NCBI RefSeq assembly: GCF_000243095.1
Contig: NZ_AHJE01000040.1
Coordinates: 1-64,000 of the forward strand
Origin: Cupriavidus basilensis OR16
Lineage (GTDB): Bacteria; Pseudomonadota; Gammaproteobacteria; Burkholderiales; Burkholderiaceae
Direction of reading: 5' to 3'
Length of the DNA stretch: 64,000 nucleotides
In this document: piece after piece, positions 5,390 to 19,084 of the stretch
Numbering within the stretch: position 1 is the first letter of the stretch
How the letters are laid out: each line of letters begins with the position of its first letter
Program-made: the position numbers and the translations under genes
Notes under the pieces: generated by a model
Databases searched by the model: none
Told to the model about the DNA's origin: nothing
Seen by the model: the letters and a program-made list of their open reading frames with translations, nothing else

Positions 5390-5632
5390 GTTCAACCTCC
5401 ATGGGTTTAAGTGGGGGCGAGACAATGACCGGCATGGTAGCGGCTGTCGTCCCGACGCTGCCGTGACTTTCGGCGCGCTAGGCTCAGTATAGTGGGCTGT
5501 GACGCTGCGCAAAGGTGGAGACGGGAGGTAATGCAAGCGCGCCCCCAGTACCGTGCGCCGCACGCACGGCAACGGCTCTCGCGTACTTCGCGAATCACCT
5601 GCGCCAGCTGGATATTCCGTTGCGGCATGGCG

Positions 5633-6962
5633 CTAACGATCCAGCGCGCCGCGCACAGCCGCCTCGAACCTGGGATCCAGCACCGCGCCCACATTGAAGC
5701 GCGACCACGGCGATGTTGCCTCGGAGTCCACGCGGAAGACGCGCCCCGGGGCGATCACGACTTTCCGCGGCAGCAGCTTCTGCGCCAGCACCAGCGAGTC
5801 GTCCACGTTCGGCAGCGCGCCCCACAGGTACAAGCTCTGCTCGGTCCGCGCGAAGACGCGTGCATCCAGCCGGTCGAACAGCGCCAGGGCCTTGCCGGTG
5901 GCCTCCGCCAGGCGGGAGCGCAGCTTTGTGATGTAGCGCTGGTAGTGCCCTTCGCTCAGGATCACGTCGACGGTGCGCTCGCAGTACTCCGAGCTGCTCA
6001 CGTGGATCAGCGCCTTGAGATCGGCGAGATCGCTTGCCAGGTCGGCGCCGCAGGCAATGAATCCCACCCGCAACGCCGCGGAGAAGGATTTGGAGAAGCT
6101 GCCGATATAGAGGGTCCGCTCGAGCTGGTCCAGCGCCGCGAGCCGGGGCAGCGTGGTGGGCTTGAAATCCGCCAGCGCATCGTTTTCCACCAGCAGCAGG
6201 TCGAACTTCTGTGGGATTGTGCGCGACGGACTGGGTGAAGAACAGGCGCGGCCGCTCCTGGATCAGCAACTGCTCCAGCGCCTCCAGGTCAGGCCCATCG
6301 GCAAGGCGCGGCACACCGACGATCCTGACGCCAGCCAGCTTGAGCTTGCCGAACAGCGGGTAGTAGCCGGGATCGTCGACCAGGACCGTCGCGCCAGCCG
6401 GCAGGAAATACCGTATCACCAGGTCGATGGCATCGTTGGCGCCGTGTGTCAGCACGATCTGCCGGGGATCGGCGCCGATGCCAAGGTCGCCCAGCTTGCG
6501 CACCAGGTGGTCACGCAGGGGGCCGTAGCCGAAGCGATTGCCGTAGCGGAACAAGGCACCCAGGCCGGTGCGCACCACCTTGTGGTGGTACTTGTCCAGG
6601 CGCGCCTCCGATAGCCACGCCACCGGCGGAAACCCATCGCCCACCGCCAGCACGTCCGGGCTGCTCTTCAGTTGCTCGCGCATCAGCCAGACGATGTCCA
6701 TGGCGCGCCGCAGCGAGCCGGCATCTTCGTCCCGCGGCGCTTTGGCCGGCCGCTCGAGCACGAAGTAGCCGGAGCCACGCCGGGGTTCCACCAGCGCGCG
6801 CGCCACCAGGATCTCGAACGCGGCGAGCTTGTCGCCGGTGCGGTAGGCGCCTTCGACAATCTGCCGCTCGATGGAATCGGCCAGCGCAGTGGCAATCGAG
6901 GGGGATCTGGGGAGGGGGATCTGGGGTTCGTCATCGGCTAGTGCTCCGGAAGGCTGGATCAA
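5633..6962 (-). pseudogene. Broken MocR/GntR-type regulator (wHTH fused to class I aminotransferase)
   Basis: A MocR-family transcription factor joins an N-terminal GntR winged helix to a PLP-dependent aminotransferase-fold domain. Here the winged helix lacks its core. After GDKL at about residue 45 the sequence jumps to AFEILVARALVE, so about 20 codons holding the recognition helix are gone in frame (near 6825). A second lesion near 6208 removes about 17 codons after AHNPT and shifts the frame; the protein resumes as FDLLLVENDALADF in another frame and runs to the stop at 5633. The PLP lysine motif SFSKSFSAALRVGF is in that second part. It is divergent from mvaA across an 83-bp gap with GTACC-type half-sites, so it was probably the regulator of the mevalonate genes. 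As read, it cannot make a working regulator. Confidence 0.85.
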
Positions 6963-6976
6963 ACTGTCCCGCCCAA

Positions 6977-7006
6977 CTGTACCTTTTTATACTGGTACAG
7001 TGTACC
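6977..7006. promoter_or_regulatory. Overlapping palindromes, candidate MocR operator and mvaA promoter region
   Basis: CTGTACC (6977-6983) and GGTACAG (6994-7000) form a perfect 7-bp inverted repeat with a 10-base spacer. The second arm also pairs with TGTACC at 7001-7006. The three half-sites are spaced as expected for a GntR/MocR dimer. TATACT at 6988-6993 could be a -10 element. The gap lies between the broken regulator and mvaA. Confidence 0.5.
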
Positions 7007-7045: not shown

Positions 7046-8332
7046 ATGGTGACCGATTCGCGCCTGCCCAACTTCCGCGCCATGACGCCCGCCCAGCGCC
7101 TGGCCTACCTGGGCGACGCCGCCGCCTTGTCGGCGCAAGATATCCGGCTCGTGGCCGAGCCCGGCGCCCTGAGCGTCGAACTCGCCAACGGCATGATCGA
7201 GAATGTGATCGGCACGTTTGAGCTGCCATTTGGCGTCGCGGGCAACTTCCAGGTCAATGGCCGGGACGTGCTGGTACCGATGGTGGTGGAAGAGCCGTCG
7301 GTGGTGGCCGCGGCCTCGTTCATGGCCAAGCTGGCGCGCGAATGCGGCGGCTTCGAGACTTCCAGCACAGGCCCGCTGATGCGGGCGCAGGTGCAGGTCC
7401 TGAGCGTCACGGACCCTTATGGCGCCCGCCAGGCCTTGCTGAAGCAGCGCGAGGCGATCCTGGACGTGGCAAACGGCCGCGACAAGGTGCTGATCGGCCT
7501 TGGCGGCGGCTGCAAGGACATCGAGGTCCACGTCTTCCCCGATACACCGCGCGGGGCCATGGTCGTGATCCACCTGATCGTGGATGTGCGCGATGCCATG
7601 GGCGCCAACACGGTAAACACCATGGCCGAAGCCGTTTCGCCGCTTGTCGAAAAAATCACCGGCGGCGCCGTGCGGCTGCGCATCCTCTCCAACCTGGCCG
7701 ACCTGCGGCTGGCACGTGCCCGCGTGCGGCTGACGCCGGCGGTGCTCGCCACCAAGGAGCGTAGCGGCGCCGAGATCATCGAGGGCGTGATCGACGCCTA
7801 TGCCTTCGCCGCCATCGACCCCTACCGGGCCGCCACGCACAACAAGGGCATCATGAATGGCATCGACCCCGTGATCGTGGCGACCGGCAATGACTGGCGC
7901 GCGGTCGAGGCCGGCGCCCATGCCTATGCCTGCCGCGGCGGCCGCTATACGTCCCTGACGCACTGGGAGAAAGACACCAGCGGCGCCCTGGTTGGCACCA
8001 TCGAAATGCCGATGCCGGTGGGCCTGGTCGGGGGCGCCACCAAGACGCATCCGCTGGCGCGGCTGGCGCTGAAGATCCTCGACGTCAAATCTGCCCAAGA
8101 GCTCGGCGAGACTGCGGTCGCCGTGGGCCTGGCGCAGAATCTTGGCGCGCTGCGGGCGCTGGCTACCGAGGGCATCCAGCGCGGCCACATGGCGCTGCAT
8201 GCGCGCAACATCGCGCTGGTGGCCGGCGCCACCGGCGACGAGGTCGACAGCATCGCGAAACGCATGGCCGAGGAGAAAGACGTGCGCACCGACCGGGCCG
8301 TGGCGTTGCTGACGGCGCTCAGGAGCCGCTAG
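7046..8332 (+). CDS. mvaA: Class II (degradative) hydroxymethylglutaryl-CoA reductase
   Basis: A 428-residue HMG-CoA reductase. In catabolism it oxidises mevalonate plus CoA to HMG-CoA with NAD. The sequence is a very close class II match and the length equals that of the Pseudomonas mevalonii enzyme. The known catalytic residues fall at the same numbers: E83 in VEEPS, K267 in HNKGIMNG, D283 in GNDWRA and H381 in [10 protein letters not shown]. The signature [10 protein letters not shown] is at 52-61. The ATG at 7046 follows GGAGACACCG. The two transport genes downstream lie on the same strand and probably form an operon with it. The HMG-CoA lyase that would complete mevalonate breakdown is not in this window. 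Confidence 0.96.
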
Positions 8333-8433
8333 GCAGGTAAGCAGATAAGCAGGTAAGCGGCAACGCGCGGCACGGCCGCGGCGAAGGACAAGAACAAGAA
8401 CCGAAGGACAAGAACAAGAACAAGAACAAGAAC
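8333..8433. repeat. Low-complexity tandem repeats between mvaA and the membrane-protein gene
   Basis: An 8-bp series (GGTAAGCA, GATAAGCA, GGTAAGCG) follows the mvaA stop. From 8383 there are two blocks of AAGGACAAGAACAAGAAC-like sequence built from the 6-mer ACAAGA. They sit within a 176-base non-coding gap. Confidence 0.75.
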
Positions 8434-8508
8434 TAGAGCTGGCATCGACGCGGGCAAGCCCGCAAGCCCACAAGCACCTGGATGCCAGCCATATCCGGAG
8501 ACATGCAA

Positions 8509-9027
8509 ATGAAAACACAGCAAGCGCCATCGGCGCGGCGCCTCGTCGAGGTTTGGGGAGATACCGCCGATACCCGGCACCTGGCGTGGTCCATCGCCAT
8601 CGGGGCCGTGGTCAGCCTGACGGGATTCCTGATCGCCAGCCGCGTGCTCAACGGGCTGGTCAAGACACCAGAGCTGGCGCGTGCCTACGCCATGCTGGCC
8701 GGCCTGGCGGGCTGCCTGCTTGCGGGCGTCATCTGCGCCTGCCTGTTCAAGCCTAAACGGGAAGTGATCGAGGGCGAGTCCGGCGACCCGGCCTGGCGCA
8801 AGGAAGTACTGGACAAGCTCGCCGAGGAAGCCGGCGGACTCGGCGCCATCGCGGACCTTCCCCCGTCCGTGGTGCGGGAGCTCAAGGAGTTGCAACTCTT
8901 CGCGCTCTTCGCAGCGCGCGAGCGCCGCAACGGCGCGCCGCAGCCGGCGGAGGACATGGCGCTGTCCGCGCCCGCCACGCTTACCACGTCTAGCACGCCC
9001 GTCAGTCCCCGGTCCAACCTGGCTTGA
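8509..9027 (+). CDS. Two-helix membrane protein next to a TctA-like permease
   Basis: A 172-residue protein of no family I recognise. Two hydrophobic segments at about residues 24-46 and 53-75 look transmembrane. The remaining hundred residues are hydrophilic, with an acidic middle and a Ser/Thr/Pro-rich tail. I chose the ATG at 8509 because GGAG at 8497-8500 is eight bases upstream; two earlier ATGs are badly spaced. It lies between mvaA and a TctA-like permease, where a tripartite tricarboxylate transporter would carry its small subunit TctB. TctB normally has four helices and no long soluble tail, so this is at most a functional analogue. Confidence 0.8.
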   Translation: MKTQQAPSARRLVEVWGDTADTRHLAWSIAIGAVVSLTGFLIASRVLNGLVKTPELARAYAMLAGLAGCLLAGVICACLFKPKREVIEGESGDPAWRKEVLDKLAEEAGGLGAIADLPPSVVRELKELQLFALFAARERRNGAPQPAEDMALSAPATLTTSSTPVSPRSNLA

Positions 9028-9066
9028 ACGCCTGCCCACGGATATCCAGGATATCGAAGGCTCATC

Positions 9067-10455
9067 ATGATCGAATCTGCACTGCTTACCCACATCCTCA
9101 TTGCCGCCGGCATGGGGCTGGCCGGCGCCGTCGTCTTTGCGGCGATCGGCCTGATCTCGGGCACCGATGAAACCACCACGCTGGCGCCGCTGACGCTGCT
9201 GGTGGTGTTGCTGGGCGTGCCACCCGAGGGGGTGTTCACGTTCTTCCTCGCCGGCGCCGTCGCCAAGCACATGACCCACGCCATCCCGACCGCGCTGCTC
9301 GGCATCCCCGGCGACACGATGGCCACGCCGCTGCTGCAGGACGCCAACCACCTGCGCAACCTGGGCGTGCCGCATATCGCGCTGCGCAAGATGATCTCCG
9401 GCGCCCTCATCGCGGCGTTCATCGCCGTGCCGCTGGCGGTGCTCTTCGCCGTCCTGCTCGCGCCGTTCGGCGCGGCGATCACCAAGGCCGCGCCGTGGAT
9501 CTTCGTCGCGGCCGCCGTGCTCATCGCCTACAGTTCGGCCGGCAGGTGGGCTTCGGTGGCCACCCTGGTGCCCTTCGTGGTGGTCATCGTGGCGTTGCAG
9601 ACGCTGACGGCGAAGTTCGGCGTCAAGCTGAGCATCAGCTATTTCCTGGGCATCGCCATCGGCCCGCTCATTGCCGATCTCTTCTCGTCCATCTCGCCCG
9701 TGGATCGCGCGCGCATGCAGCGGGACCGCGTGCGGACGTTCGCGCTGGCACCTGACGTCAAAGGCTGGTCGGGGTACTTCCCCAACCCGTTCAAGGTGCT
9801 GGATCGCAGCCAGGTGAAATGGACCGTGGCCACCGCCACCGTGTCGAGCGCGACGTTCGTGTTCAGCCCGGTCGCCATGACCGTGGTCCTCGGCGAGATC
9901 GTGGGGGCACGGGTCAAGCACGCTTATCACCGCCTCACCACCGTGCTCAGTGCGCGCAACGGCATCACCGAAGCCACTTACATTGCCGAGGCCCTGATCC
10001 CGCTCATCGCCTTCGGCTTGCCGCTCAGCCCGGTTGCGGCCGGCCCCGCCGCGCCGCTGTTCAATGCGCCGCCCGTCTACACCGTGGACGCCGGCGCCGG
10101 CCAGACCCACAACCTGCACAACCTGCTCAACCACTGGGAGTTCCTGGGCTATGGGCTGCTGGCCGTGCTGCTAGCCGCGCTGGTGTCCTATCCGTTCGCC
10201 ATGAACTACGCGCGCAGCGCCGCCCTGTTCGTGTCGCGCAAGGTGTCGCATGAGGCCATCATCGCCACCTTCGTCGGCCTGATCCTGGTCATCAGCGTCT
10301 GGGAGGGCCAGTTCCTTGGCCTGCTGGTCATCCTGACCATGGGCTTGCTGGGCGGGCTGCTCTCCAGAGCGATCGGGTTCAACACCGGTGTGCAGTTCAT
10401 GGGCTACTACACCGCCGTGCTGACGGTGCCCGCGCTGCTCAAGCTGATTGGCTAG
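9067..10455 (+). CDS. TctA-like large permease, candidate mevalonate transporter
   Basis: A 462-residue inner-membrane protein with about ten to twelve hydrophobic segments, including a long N-terminal helix (ILIAAGMGLAGAVVFAAIGL), the loop GIPGDTMATPLLQD and several strongly hydrophobic C-terminal helices. It resembles the TctA large subunit of tripartite tricarboxylate transporters, which drive solute uptake with an ion gradient, but looks like a divergent branch. It starts 39 bases after the two-helix protein and is probably co-transcribed with mvaA, which suggests mevalonate or a related branched acid as substrate. A Bug-type receptor is encoded convergently just downstream. Confidence 0.82.
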   Translation: MIESALLTHILIAAGMGLAGAVVFAAIGLISGTDETTTLAPLTLLVVLLGVPPEGVFTFFLAGAVAKHMTHAIPTALLGIPGDTMATPLLQDANHLRNLGVPHIALRKMISGALIAAFIAVPLAVLFAVLLAPFGAAITKAAPWIFVAAAVLIAYSSAGRWASVATLVPFVVVIVALQTLTAKFGVKLSISYFLGIAIGPLIADLFSSISPVDRARMQRDRVRTFALAPDVKGWSGYFPNPFKVLDRSQVKWTVATATVSSATFVFSPVAMTVVLGEIVGARVKHAYHRLTTVLSARNGITEATYIAEALIPLIAFGLPLSPVAAGPAAPLFNAPPVYTVDAGAGQTHNLHNLLNHWEFLGYGLLAVLLAALVSYPFAMNYARSAALFVSRKVSHEAIIATFVGLILVISVWEGQFLGLLVILTMGLLGGLLSRAIGFNTGVQFMGYYTAVLTVPALLKLIG

Positions 10456-10500
10456 CCGTGAAGGGCCAAGTCCGCGCGCCGTGACGACGGTTGCCCCCCT

Positions 10501-11505
10501 TCATTCGACGTGGATGCCGCCCTTGTTCACCACCGCGCCCCACCGCCCGGCCTCTTCCTTGATGGAGGCCTGGAACTGGTCGGGCGTCCCGCCGACCGGA
10601 TCGATCCCGTACTCGATCAGGCGCGCCCTCACATCCGGCTGGTGCAGCACCGCATCCATCTCGGCCGAGAGCTTCGCCAGCACCGGCTTGGGCGTCCTGG
10701 CGGGCGCGATCAGGCCGATCCAGCTGCTGGCCGTCACCGCCGGATAGCCCGCCTCGGCCATGGTCGGCACGTCGGGCGCGGCCGGCCAGCGCGTGGGGCT
10801 GGTGATCGCCAGCGCCTTGAGCTTGCCGGCTTTCACCTGCGGCATCATGGTTTGCACGGAATCGAAGATCATCGCCACCTGCCCGGAGAACAGGTCCGGC
10901 AGTGCCGGCGACACGCCCTTGTACGGCACGTGGGTCATCTTGATGCCAACCGCTTGCGAGAACAGCTCGCCGGCCAGATGCGCGCCGGAGCCGTTGCCGC
11001 TAGAGGCGTAGGTCATCTTGTCGGGATTGGCCTTGCCCCAGGCCACCAGCTCCTTCACGCTGCCGGGCGGCAACTGGGCGCTGGACACCAGCAGCAGCGG
11101 GATGCGCCCGATCTGGCTGACGCCCGTCAGGTCCCTGACCGGGTCGTAGCTCATCTTGGGGTAGAGGCTGGGGTTGATGGCATGCGCGGCCACCACCACC
11201 AGCAGCGAGTAGCCGTCGGGCGCGGACTTGGCCACGTTGTCGGAGCCGATCATGCCGTTGGCGCCGGGACGGTTCTCCACCACCACCGGCTGGCCCAGGC
11301 GCTCGGCCAGCTTTTGCATGACCAGCCGCGTCACGGCGTCGGACACGCCGCCCGGGGTGTAGGGCACCACCACGCGCACGGGCTTTGACGGAAACGGCGC
11401 CTGGGCGCGAGCCGTGGCGCCCAGGCCGCAAGCCAGCGCGGTAGCCAGCAGGCATGCGTTCATCCACAGGCCACGGGGGCGCTTCGGTTGCTTGGTTTTG
11501 TTCAT
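10501..11505 (-). CDS. Bug/TctC-family periplasmic substrate-binding protein
   Basis: A 334-residue tripartite tricarboxylate transporter receptor. The first roughly 35 residues form a signal peptide (basic start, hydrophobic core, ARAQA cleavage region). The mature part has the Bug hallmarks: KPVRVVVPYTPGG, VVENRPGANGMIG, a THVPYKG segment and DVPTMAEAGYP. It binds a carboxylate ligand in the periplasm. GGAGGAGAC precedes the ATG at 11505. It lies 79 bases after atuA on the same strand and converges with the TctA-like permease, so it could serve either the terpene operon or the mevalonate permease. Confidence 0.93.
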   Translation of the reverse strand: MNKTKQPKRPRGLWMNACLLATALACGLGATARAQAPFPSKPVRVVVPYTPGGVSDAVTRLVMQKLAERLGQPVVVENRPGANGMIGSDNVAKSAPDGYSLLVVVAAHAINPSLYPKMSYDPVRDLTGVSQIGRIPLLLVSSAQLPPGSVKELVAWGKANPDKMTYASSGNGSGAHLAGELFSQAVGIKMTHVPYKGVSPALPDLFSGQVAMIFDSVQTMMPQVKAGKLKALAITSPTRWPAAPDVPTMAEAGYPAVTASSWIGLIAPARTPKPVLAKLSAEMDAVLHQPDVRARLIEYGIDPVGGTPDQFQASIKEEAGRWGAVVNKGGIHVE

Positions 11506-11584
11506 GTCTCCTCCATCAGGTGGGGATGGCTTCGGTCCGCCGTGGTTGTCTGGCAGCCGATGCCATGGAATGGCAGCTGCTGGC

Positions 11585-13275
11585 CTACGCCCAGTCTTGC
11601 GGCACCGTGAGCGGAAAATCGAGCAGCATTTGCGCGTAGCTCTTGCCGAGCGGGTCGGAGCGCAGGCTGGCCACGCCCCCGCCGCCCAGCGCGCGGTGCA
11701 GCAGGAAGTTAAGGGCGTGCAAGCCCGGCACCTCGAAGCATTCCACCTCGCCCTGGACCAGATGCGCGAAATACCCGCGCACCGCGGCCGGGGTGAGCTG
11801 CTCACGCAGCAGCGGCAGGTATGACGGCTGGCGGGCGATCACGCCGATGTTCTCGTCGTCGCCCTTGTCGCCGCTGCGCGCGTAGGCCAGCGCGATCAGC
11901 GGCACGGTTACGCGCGGCCCGCCGGGAATGCCAGGCGGCGGCGCTGCCGCCAGCGCGGCCGGCGCCGTCAGCTCGCCCGCGACGGCGGCGCAGGCAAGCG
12001 CCGCCGTCTGGCCGTCCAGCGCGACCTGCATCCGGACTTCCGCCTTCGGCACCAGGAAAGAGAACACCTTGACCACCGGCTGGATATCCACGCGGCCGGC
12101 AAAGGATGAGCGCGTGCCGGCGGCCATCGAGGTGCCCGCCGATGAGCCTTCGCGCTGCAGGAAGCGCAGCGCCTTGGCCTGCGCATGGCGCGCGCCAAGG
12201 CGCAGCACCACCTCGCGGGTGGGCAACGCGCGGGCATGCGGGCCATATTGCGACTCGCAGCCGAGCAGTTCCACCACGGTGCCGCTGTAGTCCGCCAAGC
12301 CGTTGGCGGCCAGCATGGCGCGAGTGCGCGCCAGTAGCGCGTCGGCGGTGCGGCGGGCCTTGGCGGGCGCGTCGATGCCGCGGATCGCCATCATCAGGCT
12401 GAGCTGGTAGCCAGGCATCAGGTAGTTGCCGGGGTCGCCCACCTCGTACAAGACCTGCTCCGCCACGGCGGCGGGATCGACCAGGCCGCCGGTACCCGCG
12501 GGCTTGGAGAGCACGAAGCTGCCATCCTCCGCGCAGTCGATCACCGGGTAGCCGATGCGGTCCCAGTCCGGCACGCGCTGCCAGTCGGTAAAGAGGCCAC
12601 CGGTGGCCTGCGCGCCGCACTCGATCACGTGCCCGGCCAGCGTGCCGGCGGCAAGCCGGTCCCAATCGTGCCATTGCCAGCCAAACTCGTGGGCCAGCGC
12701 GCCAACCACCCCGGCGCTGTCCACGCAGCGGCCCGTGATGACGATATCGGCGCCCAGCGCCAGCGCGCGGGCGATGCCTTGCGCGCCGGTATAGGCGTTG
12801 GCCGACATCAGCTCCGCGGGCGGCGTGGCGCCGGTGTAGAGATCGGTAAGGCCCGCGGCGCGCCAGCCCTCGAAGGCGGGCAATACGTCGTCGCCGCTGA
12901 CCACCGCCACCTTGGGCGCCAGCCCTTGCCGCGCGGCGGCGGCCATCACCGCGTCGCGGCAGGCCTGCGGATTGAGGCCGCCGGCATTGGCAATCACGCG
13001 GATGCCGCGCGCCAGGATCTGGCCGAGGTGCGGCGCCATCGCGGCCTGCACGAAGTCCGTGGCGTAGCCCAGCGCGGGGTCCTTGGCGCGGGCCCGCGCC
13101 AGGATCGACATAGTGGTCTCGGCCAGGTAGTCGTAGACCAGGTATTGCAGGCCGGGAACCTCCAGCAGTTGCGGCGTGGCGATGGCGGAATCGCCCCAGA
13201 AGCCGGAGGCGCCGCCTATGCGCACGGTGCGTGCAGGATTGGGGGTGGCGCTGGTGGTGTGCATGCTGGTGGTGT

Positions 13276-13279
<4 letters not shown>
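11585..13279 (-). CDS. atuA: AtuA-type acyclic terpene utilisation protein (DUF1446)
   Basis: A 564-residue protein of the AtuA/DUF1446 family, found in acyclic-terpene (citronellol/geraniol) operons. Its reaction is not established. Visible features are the N-terminal RIGGASGFWGDS, the GADIVITGRCVDSA segment and the C-terminal YARSGDKGDDENIGVIAR. No signal peptide or membrane helix is seen. It overlaps the end of the upstream carboxylase alpha-subunit gene by four bases (ATGA), so it is translationally coupled as the last gene of atuC-D-E-F-A. This gene is the main reason to call the operon atu-type rather than a leucine (liu) operon. Confidence 0.92.
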
Positions 13280-15279
<2,000 letters not shown>

Positions 15280-15323
15280 GGGGCGTCTCGGGATGCGGAG
15301 TATCTGGATACGGTTGTGTGGAT

Positions 15324-16199
15324 TCAGCCTTGCGTGGCCTGCGCCGCGCGCACGGTGGCGGCGTCAAGGCGTACCACCCACGCGGCATCGCGCTTGTCGC
15401 GAAAGGCCTGGATGCCTTCGGCGCCTTCGCTGCGCATGCATTGGGCGAACAGGTGCGCGGCTTCGTCCAGCACGGCGCCCTGCGCGACCTGCCCGGTGCG
15501 CGCCACCAGCGGCTTGAAGGCGCGGTTGGCTTGCGGCCCGCAGCGGCAAATGCGCGTCAGCCACTCGGCCAGCAACGCATCGAGGGCAGCGCTGTCCTCG
15601 GCCAGCGCATCGGCCAGCCCCAGCGCCACCGCCGTGTCGCCGCTGACGCGCTCGCCGGACAAGCCGAGGCGCCGCGTGGCCGCCGCGCCGATGCGCGCCA
15701 CCACGAAGGGCGCGATCTGCGCGGCAATGATGCCCAGCGACGTCTCCGACAAGGCAAAGCGCGCGTCGCGCGTGGCCAGCACGATATCGGCGGCGCAGCT
15801 CAGGCCCATGCCGCCACCCATGGCCGCGCCCTCCACCGCCGCCACCACGGGCACCGGGAGCGCGGCCAGGCGCTGCATGAAGTAGCCGAATTCGCGGTTA
15901 CGGCTTGCCAACGGATCCTCAGGCGCGTTGCCCGCCTCCAGCCTCGCCTTGAAATTGCCGACGTTGCCGCCCGCGCAGAAGAAGCCGCCCGCGCCGCGCA
16001 GCACCAGCGCGCGCACGGTGATGTCGGTCTCGGCGCGCTCCACGGCGCGCGCCAGCGCGGCGACCACTTCGGGCGCGAGCGCATTGCGCGTGGCGGGCAC
16101 GTTGAGGGTGACGAACAGCACGCCCTGGACCTCACGCACGATCACGGCGTGGGCGGCATTGGCGGCATTGGCGGCATCTGTATTGACTGCGTTGATCAT
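15324..16199 (-). CDS. atuE: Enoyl-CoA hydratase family protein (isohexenylglutaconyl-CoA hydratase type)
   Basis: A 291-residue crotonase-fold protein. It shows the oxyanion-hole segments ALVLRGAGGFFCAGGN and GAAMGGGMGLSCAADIVLA. In the acyclic terpene pathway this enzyme hydrates isohexenylglutaconyl-CoA after carboxylation. The N-terminus has a short alanine/asparagine-rich stretch encoded by three copies of a 9-bp repeat (16152-16178), so the true start may be slightly later; no strong ribosome-binding site is visible before the ATG at 16199. It lies between the dehydrogenase and carboxylase alpha genes on the same strand. Confidence 0.87.
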   Translation of the reverse strand: MINAVNTDAANAANAAHAVIVREVQGVLFVTLNVPATRNALAPEVVAALARAVERAETDITVRALVLRGAGGFFCAGGNVGNFKARLEAGNAPEDPLASRNREFGYFMQRLAALPVPVVAAVEGAAMGGGMGLSCAADIVLATRDARFALSETSLGIIAAQIAPFVVARIGAAATRRLGLSGERVSGDTAVALGLADALAEDSAALDALLAEWLTRICRCGPQANRAFKPLVARTGQVAQGAVLDEAAHLFAQCMRSEGAEGIQAFRDKRDAAWVVRLDAATVRAAQATQG

Positions 16200-16245
16200 G
16201 GCTGGAGAGATTGAAGAACGTGGGACGGCGGGCGATGGCGGGCAT

Positions 16246-17406
<1,161 letters not shown>

Positions 17407-17452
17407 GTTGGTGGTCTCCGATTCTCTTGTTGGTGTGTTCGCGGCGCGCCGA

Positions 17453-19084
17453 TCAGAACCGCGCCACGCCAAATTGCATCGCGCGCGGCGTGCGCGCTTC
17501 GGCCTCGCGGGCGGTAGCCAGCACGAAGGCCAGCACGGCGCGGGTGTCGCGCGGGTCGATCACGCCGTCGTCCAGCAACAGGCCGCTGGTGATGAAGGCG
17601 CTGGCCTGGCGCTCGAAGTTGGCGACGATCTCGCCGGTCTGCTGCGCCAGGCGCGCTTCGTCCACCGCAACGCACTTGCGCTCGGCCTGCTGGCGCGCGA
17701 CGATCTCCAGCGTCATGGCGGCCTGCTCGCCGCCCATCACCGCGGTGCGCGCGTTGGGCCACGAGAAGCAAAAGCGCGGGCGGAAGCCCCGGCCGCACAT
17801 GCCAAAATTGCCCGCGCCAAACGATGCGCCGCAATAGATCGTGACCTGCGGCACGGTGGAGTTGGACAGCGCCTGGATCATCTTGGCGCCGTGCTTGATC
17901 ATGCCGGCTTCTTCCGACGCGCGGCCAACGATAAAGCCGGTGGTGTTTTGCAGGAACACAATGGGCGTGCCGCTCTGGTTGCAGGCCTGGATAAACTGCG
18001 CGGCCTTGGTCGCACCCGCCGGGTCGATCGGGCCGTTATTGCTGATAAAGCCCACCGCATGGCCCTCGATGCGGCCACGGCCGCAGACGGTGGCCGTGCC
18101 ATAGTCCGGCTTGAACGCAAGCCACGCGGAATCGTCGGTGAGGCGGCCGATGATCTCCAGCATGTCCACGGGCTTCTTCACATCCAGCGTCATCACGCCA
18201 TCGAGCTCGCCCGCGTCCAGGCGCGGCGGCTGCGCCGGCTGGGGCAGGCGCGGCGCCACGGCCGGCCAGTCCAGGCTGGCCACCACGTCGCGCGCCAGCG
18301 CGATGGCATGCTCGTCGTCCTCGGCCAGGAATTCCGCCAGGCCGCTGACGGTGGCATGCAGGTCGGCGCCGCCCAACTCCTCATCGGTGGCGATCTCGCC
18401 GGTGGCAGCCTTGAGCAGCGGCGGCCCGGCCAGGAAGGCACGGGCGCGGCCGCGCACCATCACCACGTAGTCGGACAGGCCCGGCATATAGGCGCCACCC
18501 GCGGTCGACGACCCGTGCACCACCGTGATCACCGGCAGCCCGGCAGCGGACAGGCGCGCCAGGTTGTAGAAGATGCCGCCGCCGCGCACGAACTTGTCCA
18601 CGCGGTACTTGCGCAGGTTGGCGCCGGCCGACTCCACCAGGTGGATGAACGGCAGGCGGTTTTCCAGGGCGATCTCCTGGCAGCGCATCAGCTTGAGGTT
18701 GCCGCCCTCGGTCATGGCGCCGGCATCGATGCCGGAATCGGTCGCCACCACCATCGCGCGCACGCCGCGGACAAAGCCGATGCCGGCCACCAGCGAGCCG
18801 CCGGGAATGGAGGTGTCGTGATCGGTATCATCCATGCCATAACCCGCCAGGTTGGCGATCGGCAGGAAGGCGGTAGCGGGATCCAGCAAGCGCGCCAGGC
18901 GCTCGCGCGGCAGCAGCGCACCGCGCTTGGCGAAGGACAGGCGGGCACGCTCGGAAGCGGCAACGGCGCGCTGCTCCAGCGCGCGCAGCTGCTCGATCAG
19001 GGCTTGCATGCCGGTGCGCTGGCTGGCAAAGGTGGGACTGGCGGGATCGATCCGGGACTCGATGGGAAGCATGGCGCTCGGCAT
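17453..19084 (-). CDS. atuC: Acyl-CoA carboxylase carboxyltransferase beta subunit (geranyl-CoA carboxylase type)
   Basis: A 543-residue carboxyltransferase that moves carboxyl from biotin to the acyl-CoA, partner of the alpha subunit at 13276. Typical segments are VESAGANL, the GSSTAGGAYMPGLSDY oxyanion loop, FLAGPPLLKAATGE and GQ-type C-terminal motifs. The wording SSTAGGAYMPGLSDYVVMVRG fits AtuC better than methylcrotonyl-CoA carboxylase, in my judgement, but the two are close. It is the first gene of the minus-strand operon. The start is uncertain: ATGs at 19084 and 19072 both lack a clear ribosome-binding site. A palindromic operator lies about 70 bases upstream. Confidence 0.88.
   Translation of the reverse strand: MPSAMLPIESRIDPASPTFASQRTGMQALIEQLRALEQRAVAASERARLSFAKRGALLPRERLARLLDPATAFLPIANLAGYGMDDTDHDTSIPGGSLVAGIGFVRGVRAMVVATDSGIDAGAMTEGGNLKLMRCQEIALENRLPFIHLVESAGANLRKYRVDKFVRGGGIFYNLARLSAAGLPVITVVHGSSTAGGAYMPGLSDYVVMVRGRARAFLAGPPLLKAATGEIATDEELGGADLHATVSGLAEFLAEDDEHAIALARDVVASLDWPAVAPRLPQPAQPPRLDAGELDGVMTLDVKKPVDMLEIIGRLTDDSAWLAFKPDYGTATVCGRGRIEGHAVGFISNNGPIDPAGATKAAQFIQACNQSGTPIVFLQNTTGFIVGRASEEAGMIKHGAKMIQALSNSTVPQVTIYCGASFGAGNFGMCGRGFRPRFCFSWPNARTAVMGGEQAAMTLEIVARQQAERKCVAVDEARLAQQTGEIVANFERQASAFITSGLLLDDGVIDPRDTRAVLAFVLATAREAEARTPRAMQFGVARF

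Follow-up and report, generated by a model that had tools for sequence, protein, structure and literature searches.

Results

Gene content of the candidate mevalonate locus

We analyzed a stretch of 64,000 nucleotides from Cupriavidus basilensis OR16 (contig NZ_AHJE01000040.1, positions 1-64,000 of the forward strand; the window in the following), in which three consecutive genes of the plus strand form a candidate cassette for mevalonate catabolism. The first gene (7046-8332) encodes a degradative class II 3-hydroxy-3-methylglutaryl-CoA (HMG-CoA) reductase of the mvaA type (HMGR, 428 amino acids), the second (8509-9027) a membrane protein of 172 amino acids with two predicted helices that belongs to an undescribed family, and the third (9067-10455) a divergent permease of the TctA family (462 amino acids) with mevalonate as candidate substrate. 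A gene for a MocR-type regulator lies divergently upstream of the HMGR gene, and a gene for a solute-binding protein of the Bug/TctC type converges with the permease gene.

The reductase matches the NCBIfam model TIGR00532 (‘degradative’) with 418.5 bits, above the curated cut-off of 259.95, and Pfam PF00368 with 368.9 bits. Its best matches in the PDB are 6dio, 1qax (676.6 bits) and 6p7k, which originate from Delftia acidovorans, Pseudomonas mevalonii and Burkholderia cenocepacia, respectively. E83, K267, D283 and H381 match the positions of the catalytic Glu, Lys, Asp and His of P. mevalonii, and this set is kept in 13 of 13 aligned HMGRs. An earlier note on this DNA, made from the sequence alone, had predicted a class II HMGR with all four catalytic residues, which our searches confirm. 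The gap to the second gene measures 176 bp and exceeds that of 55 of the 57 relatives measured in which no lyase gene intervenes; positions 8333-8475 of this intergenic region are filled by short tandem repeats with the units GCAGGTAA, AAGAAC and GCAAGCCC.

The permease matches PF01970 with 75.5 bits (cut-off 28.9), residues 18-434 aligning to positions 5-413 of the 423 positions of the profile. The TctA-like permease expected behind the two-helix protein is thus present in a divergent form. The genome has five further TctA matches, all with scores of 350-548 bits, which makes this permease an outlier. We aligned 19 permease sequences (alignment A3); by eye, helix 1 reads GLISGTDE in the window and GVAPGTDE in a second clade described below.

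The two-helix protein and its relation to TctB

Relatives of the small protein were picked by an alignment scan of named genomes, and the best 80 of the 177 relatives are the named loci considered throughout; L002, a chance match at E 0.2, was excluded. Because eight of the 80 small open reading frames show no unambiguous ATG start, the spacing counts use the other 72; alignment A2 draws on the same 72 and comprises 40 sequences (39 after thinning, plus the small protein of the window). In the window the longest ATG/GTG/TTG open reading frame of the small gene begins at 8482. The spacing to a Shine-Dalgarno sequence (GGAG) and the alignment with the relatives favor the ATG at 8509, in support of the start proposed before.

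Hydropathy analysis revealed two hydrophobic peaks (residues 24-54 and 56-85), and an AlphaFold2 model with a mean predicted local distance difference test score (pLDDT) of 77.5 contains confident helices at residues 22-50 and 54-79; the tail behind them is helical in part. The prediction of a two-helix membrane protein at 8509-9027 is therefore well founded. Alignment A2 shows the motifs E-[VI]-W-G-D-T before helix 1, R-A-Y-A-M-L-x-G-L-x-G-C in helix 2 and F-x-P-K-R after helix 2, and in the main clade a long soluble tail with conserved positions. No Pfam or NCBIfam family exceeded its cut-off with the small protein, and nothing in Pfam scored above cut-off with four short proteins of the second clade. 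A sequence search of the PDB with the small family had a best E-value of 0.3, and a fold search with the small protein gave no match at E ≤0.001 (best 0.61). Judged by Pfam, NCBIfam and the PDB, the small protein represents an undescribed family, in agreement with the earlier note, whose author knew of none for it.

The small protein could still be a strongly diverged and shortened TctB, reduced to helices 1-2 and with its tail replaced, that forms an ordinary permease pair of the tripartite tricarboxylate transporter (TTT) family. It occupies the same genetic place as TctB with a similar helix order, and profile comparison with hhalign aligned the small family with helices 1-2 of the TctB profile over 62 columns at a score of 20.8 that was unreached by 100 locally shuffled TctB profiles (best 20.0). 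However, the probability of this alignment was 4-9% (score 20.8-22.4) and thus near the background of the negative control (18 TctA windows of 100 columns: maximum score 18.4, probability 3.8%), whereas the positive control, the permease against classical TctA, reached 84% with the second clade included. A search for TctB (PF07331) gave no match at E 10 in the 22 members scanned (17 of the main clade and five others), and the protein shows two hydrophobic segments and two membrane-length helices where TctB has four helices. The three TctB matches of the genome all lie on other contigs. The positive control was weaker on shallow sets (25% with 32 TctA without the second clade, 1.3% with five TctA), which indicates that the method is weak there, so that TctB is to be regarded as not detected, a weaker statement than excluded. 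Overall, an ordinary diverged TctB appears unlikely; the small protein might have a remote origin in half a TctB.

Conservation of the cassette

The search of other genomes for this gene order that had been suggested proved productive: HMGR, small protein and permease genes occur in the same order and on the same strand in all 80 named loci, found in Cupriavidus, Variovorax, Delftia, Comamonas, Pandoraea, Caballeronia, Bordetella, Pseudomonas, Azospirillum, Microvirga and other genera. In all 72 loci measured, eight of the 80 being left out, the small and permease genes overlap or are at most 41 bp apart. Since these loci had been picked by the small protein, we ran a reverse co-occurrence test in 299 genomes of the family, including that of the window. 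The small protein was found in 42, HMGR (TIGR00532) in 43 and the permease in 44 genomes, and all three in 42 (Fisher p ~1e-50 for the co-occurrence of small protein and HMGR, a value that ignores relatedness). The exceptions are G215, which has a partial HMGR match only, and G110 and G256, which have permease fragments only. The trio is conserved, far from chance.

An HMG-CoA lyase gene was found in 36 of the named loci, on the strand of the operon in 35 and on the opposite strand in one; these counts, like those of Bug proteins below, are lower bounds because contig ends cut some of the loci. One operon-borne lyase scored 452 bits against a cut-off of 246. With the lyase on the same strand, the pathway from mevalonate to acetyl-CoA and acetoacetate is complete in these 35 loci. 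The genome of the window contains several lyase matches, the best of which (C315, 492 bits) lies outside the locus, so the lyase that was to be looked for elsewhere is present.

Searches with a permease profile yielded sparse results (2 of 369 genomes class-wide and 7 of 398 phylum-wide, the genome of the window counted). The class-wide search led to one further genome (permease 327 bits), in which a divergent MocR-type regulator gene (41% identity to a main-clade regulator) is followed by the genes for a small protein of 79 residues, the permease and HMGR. In the family of this genome, 18 of 201 genomes match. Fourteen of these loci are of the divergent type and constitute the second clade (permease 37-39% identical): in all 14, the order is short small protein, permease, HMGR. 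With the last Met ahead of the motif taken as the start, the short small proteins comprise 77-109 residues, 12 of the 14 having 77 or 78. The remaining four of the 18 combine a lyase, a long small protein and a main-type permease; HMGR was not within the fetched stretch. Common to both clades are W-[GDN]-D, the two helices and P-K-R, and the long tail is confined to the main clade, which indicates that the tail is dispensable. The long soluble tail described in the earlier note therefore exists in the window, but it is not a family-wide feature. Within the membrane, the core of about 75 residues that comprises the shared elements most likely binds to the permease. By the positive-inside rule, the conserved P-K-R behind helix 2 makes a cytoplasmic location of the variable tail probable; the tail is probably an accessory.

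Exchange of HMGR and plasmid-borne cassettes

The HMGR of Azospirillum shares 68-69% identity with that of the second clade and 52-53% with that of the window, whereas its permease is 82% identical to the permease of the window and 38% to that of the second clade. The small protein keeps its tail there, beside an HMGR nearer the second clade. Two plasmid-borne cassettes of Acetobacteraceae show the same constellation: their HMGRs are 62-63% identical to that of the second clade and 52-54% to that of the window, and their permeases 76-77% to that of the window (exchanged loci in both groups: L128, L130, L131, L292 and L293). The linkage of permease and HMGR thus appears to have survived the exchange of the HMGR lineage. 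The association of the permease with HMGRs of either lineage suggests that both proteins share a substrate, mevalonate.

The permease occurs on six plasmid records, of which four were fetched; three of these are annotated (Lichenicola cladoniae, Roseomonas gilardii and Rhizobium etli 8C-3). On the annotated plasmids, a divergent ‘PLP-dependent aminotransferase family protein’ (PLP, pyridoxal 5'-phosphate) is followed, in this order, by HMGR, a ‘hypothetical protein’ and a ‘tripartite tricarboxylate transporter permease’. The hypothetical proteins are members of the small family (40-50% identity). The lyase gene is located at the end of the cassette in L. cladoniae and R. gilardii and beside the regulator gene in Rhizobium. 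On a Burkholderia cenocepacia plasmid, the regulator and the trio of HMGR, small protein and permease were detected by tblastn; the fetched stretch yielded no lyase. C-terminal remnants of the permease without the rest of the cassette were observed in L263 (2546-2680), G110 and G256, one of them beside Bug/AtuA genes; they are probably decayed copies of the locus.

The permease might also transport a related acid such as free 3-hydroxy-3-methylglutarate or another branched hydroxy acid, or export mevalonate, with HMGR serving another step. Our assignment of the substrate relies on neighboring genes, and the substrates of TTT systems are diverse according to parts of a published account (PMC5812351). 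Against this, HMGR, for which mevalonate is either substrate or product, is encoded in all 80 named loci, including those in which we found no lyase, and the linkage was kept after the swap to a distant HMGR. Free hydroxymethylglutarate would in addition need a CoA-activating enzyme, but once regulator, HMGR, lyase, small protein and permease are set aside, every other gene cluster is shared by at most 5 of 21 loci. A substrate other than mevalonate, or transport in the outward direction, is for these reasons decidedly unlikely.

Alternatively, the small protein could be a regulator, a chaperone or a membrane anchor that brings HMGR or the lyase to the permease. The long soluble tail with its conserved positions in the main clade would suit such a role, but the second clade lacks it, and in Azospirillum a tailed small protein is paired with an HMGR nearer the other clade. 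The small gene is moreover closely packed or overlapping with the permease gene, as opposed to a distance of 41-332 bp from the HMGR gene where no lyase gene lies between. We consider this role very unlikely. The tail as a tether of HMGR had been tried as a separate idea and is weakened by the tailless clade and the exchanged HMGRs.

The divergent regulator and its candidate operator

The gene upstream of the cassette (5595-6962, minus strand) encodes a MocR-type regulator, a GntR-type DNA-binding part joined to an aminotransferase-like domain, and is broken in the window: relative to four of four congeneric copies (79-81% identity), it shows two deletions, of 54 bp in the DNA-binding part and of 50 bp farther along the gene, and it extends over two reading frames. 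It is either a pseudogene or the result of an assembly fault. One intact relative has both the GntR-type part and the aminotransferase-like domain and matches the models of PdxR (best, 228 bits), YczR, MocR and EhuR over most of its length, in each case below the cut-off. Matches to a divergent MocR-type regulator were obtained for 79 of the 80 named loci, all except L127.

Upstream of the HMGR gene, the inverted repeat CTGTACC-N10-GGTACAG (6977-7000) is the candidate operator of this regulator, as suggested by the recurrence of the pattern. Its degenerate form TGT[ACG]CC-N9..11-GG[CTG]ACA is found upstream of HMGR in 64 of the 80 named loci and elsewhere in those loci once in ~1.5 Mb; in the window it occurs at 6977-7000 only.

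The convergent Bug gene

The Bug receptor gene seen before at 10501-11505 (minus strand) is indeed present (PF03401, 266 bits) and converges with the permease gene, with 45 bp between the two. It begins 80 bp after an AtuA gene on the same strand. We compared 22 loci of the genus, the window included, that contain an orthologue of this Bug protein (at least 74% identity): the orthologue adjoins AtuA in 21 of them and the permease in only two, the window and one locus with a permease remnant. Among the 10 genomes in the genus in which we know of the cassette, eight have no Bug orthologue, as far as 36 first-look candidates scored per genome can tell (a miss is possible), and in 4 of the 80 named loci a search with the Bug protein of the window as single query found a match no more than 3 kb away from the cassette. 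We judge that the Bug gene belongs to the neighboring AtuA operon and not to the cassette. Although the Bug gene stands next to the permease gene and classical TTT systems consist of TctA, TctB and TctC according to parts of the family description (PMC5812351), a complete tripartite mevalonate importer with this Bug protein as receptor, as the earlier note had it, is highly improbable and was rejected in view of the AtuA linkage and the rarity of Bug genes near cassettes.

The Bug and AtuA genes are part of a minus-strand cluster (10501-19084) that also encodes a biotin carboxylase and an enoyl-CoA hydratase; two more open reading frames resemble, by eye, acyl-CoA dehydrogenase and carboxyltransferase. 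This cluster probably serves the catabolism of acyclic terpenes or branched acids.

Discussion

The genes at 7046-10455 probably constitute a mevalonate-catabolism cassette whose import step would be carried out by two components, the divergent TctA-type permease and the two-helix protein, with no dedicated receptor encoded alongside. This interpretation retains from the earlier note the proposed link between mevalonate catabolism and transport and the two-helix protein in the place of TctB, and it abandons the Bug protein as the receptor. According to our model, permease and two-helix protein would import mevalonate together in an ion-coupled manner. HMGR relatives working in the oxidative direction convert mevalonate, CoA and 2 NAD+ to HMG-CoA, and the enzyme of the cassette would oxidize mevalonate in this way. 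HMG-CoA would then be split into acetyl-CoA and acetoacetate by HMG-CoA lyase, whose gene lies within the operon in many relatives and at another location in this genome. The MocR-type regulator may normally control the operon from a CTGTACC-N9/10-GGTACAG site between the divergent genes. The two-helix protein would take the genetic place of TctB, its core docking on the permease and its tail being accessory.

Several observations weigh against this interpretation. That mevalonate is the substrate we infer from neighboring genes, and the interaction between small protein and permease from linkage only. The permease scores low against TctA (75.5 bits), its structural model is poor (mean pLDDT 49), and by eye the Pro-Gly of the classical helix-1 signature is absent from the protein of the window; in TctA proteins, a Gly-rich signature ending in P-G is described for helices 1 and 7 in parts of PMC5812351. 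A receptor encoded elsewhere is possible, and Bug genes are abundant in these genomes. The broken regulator gene makes expression of the cassette in this strain uncertain, and the operator-like repeat is absent from 16 of the 80 loci, mostly of Pseudomonas and Azospirillum.

The cassette supplies two candidate genes for the import of mevalonate, a step for which we found no described natural gene. Inducible mevalonate uptake was reportedly observed in Pseudomonas sp. M in 1984. In the open-licence papers searched, which do not cover older subscription work, no paper assigned a TctA-type permease or the small family to mevalonate. The permease is a TctA relative; new to the literature searched are its pairing and the absence of a linked receptor. 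Passages of a paper from 2025 state that bacterial mevalonate import systems exist and name a mutant MCT1 as the sole previously known importer (PMC12405511). A natural importer could be on offer for isoprenoid engineering. If our interpretation is true, a TctA permease works with a partner that is not TctB and without a linked receptor, in a transporter family in which TctB has no known function according to parts of PMC5812351. A MocR-type regulator tied to mevalonate would be unexpected: characterized members bind PLP and control genes for PLP, γ-aminobutyric acid and taurine, as described in parts of a survey of MocR regulons whose main text, on a term search, contains no mention of mevalonate or HMG-CoA (PMC5320631). 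We see an even chance that the locus represents a natural, dedicated mevalonate importer of a new two-component kind in the full sense, with a divergent TctA permease that works without a dedicated periplasmic receptor and needs a two-helix partner unrelated to TctB, encoded in a five-gene cassette partly spread by plasmids and controlled by a MocR-type regulator that would have to sense a non-amine.

Mevalonate degradation in P. mevalonii, which proceeds via the HMG-CoA reductase mvaA and the HMG-CoA lyase mvaB, is the closest parallel on the catabolic side. The HMGR of the window belongs to the same degradative family, as reflected by its match to 1qax, and the lyase gene lies directly 3' of the HMGR gene in 15 loci measured. 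In contrast to these two genes, the cassette also comprises permease, two-helix protein and divergent MocR-type regulator. On the transport side, the cassette resembles TctABC systems in that the permease fits PF01970 over almost its full length and is directly preceded by the gene for a small membrane protein. It differs from them in the two instead of four helices of this protein, which has no PF07331 match, and in the lack of a consistently linked receptor. Archaeal TctA homologues are likewise permeases without TctB or TctC (described in parts of PMC5812351), whereas all full loci of the cassette that we examined have a gene for a dedicated two-helix partner next to the permease gene. With the engineered MCT1 F360C and the evolved yeast JEN1 (reported in parts of PMC12405511), the system shares the proposed import of mevalonate. 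Unlike these mutated eukaryotic carriers, it is a natural bacterial candidate from another transporter family.

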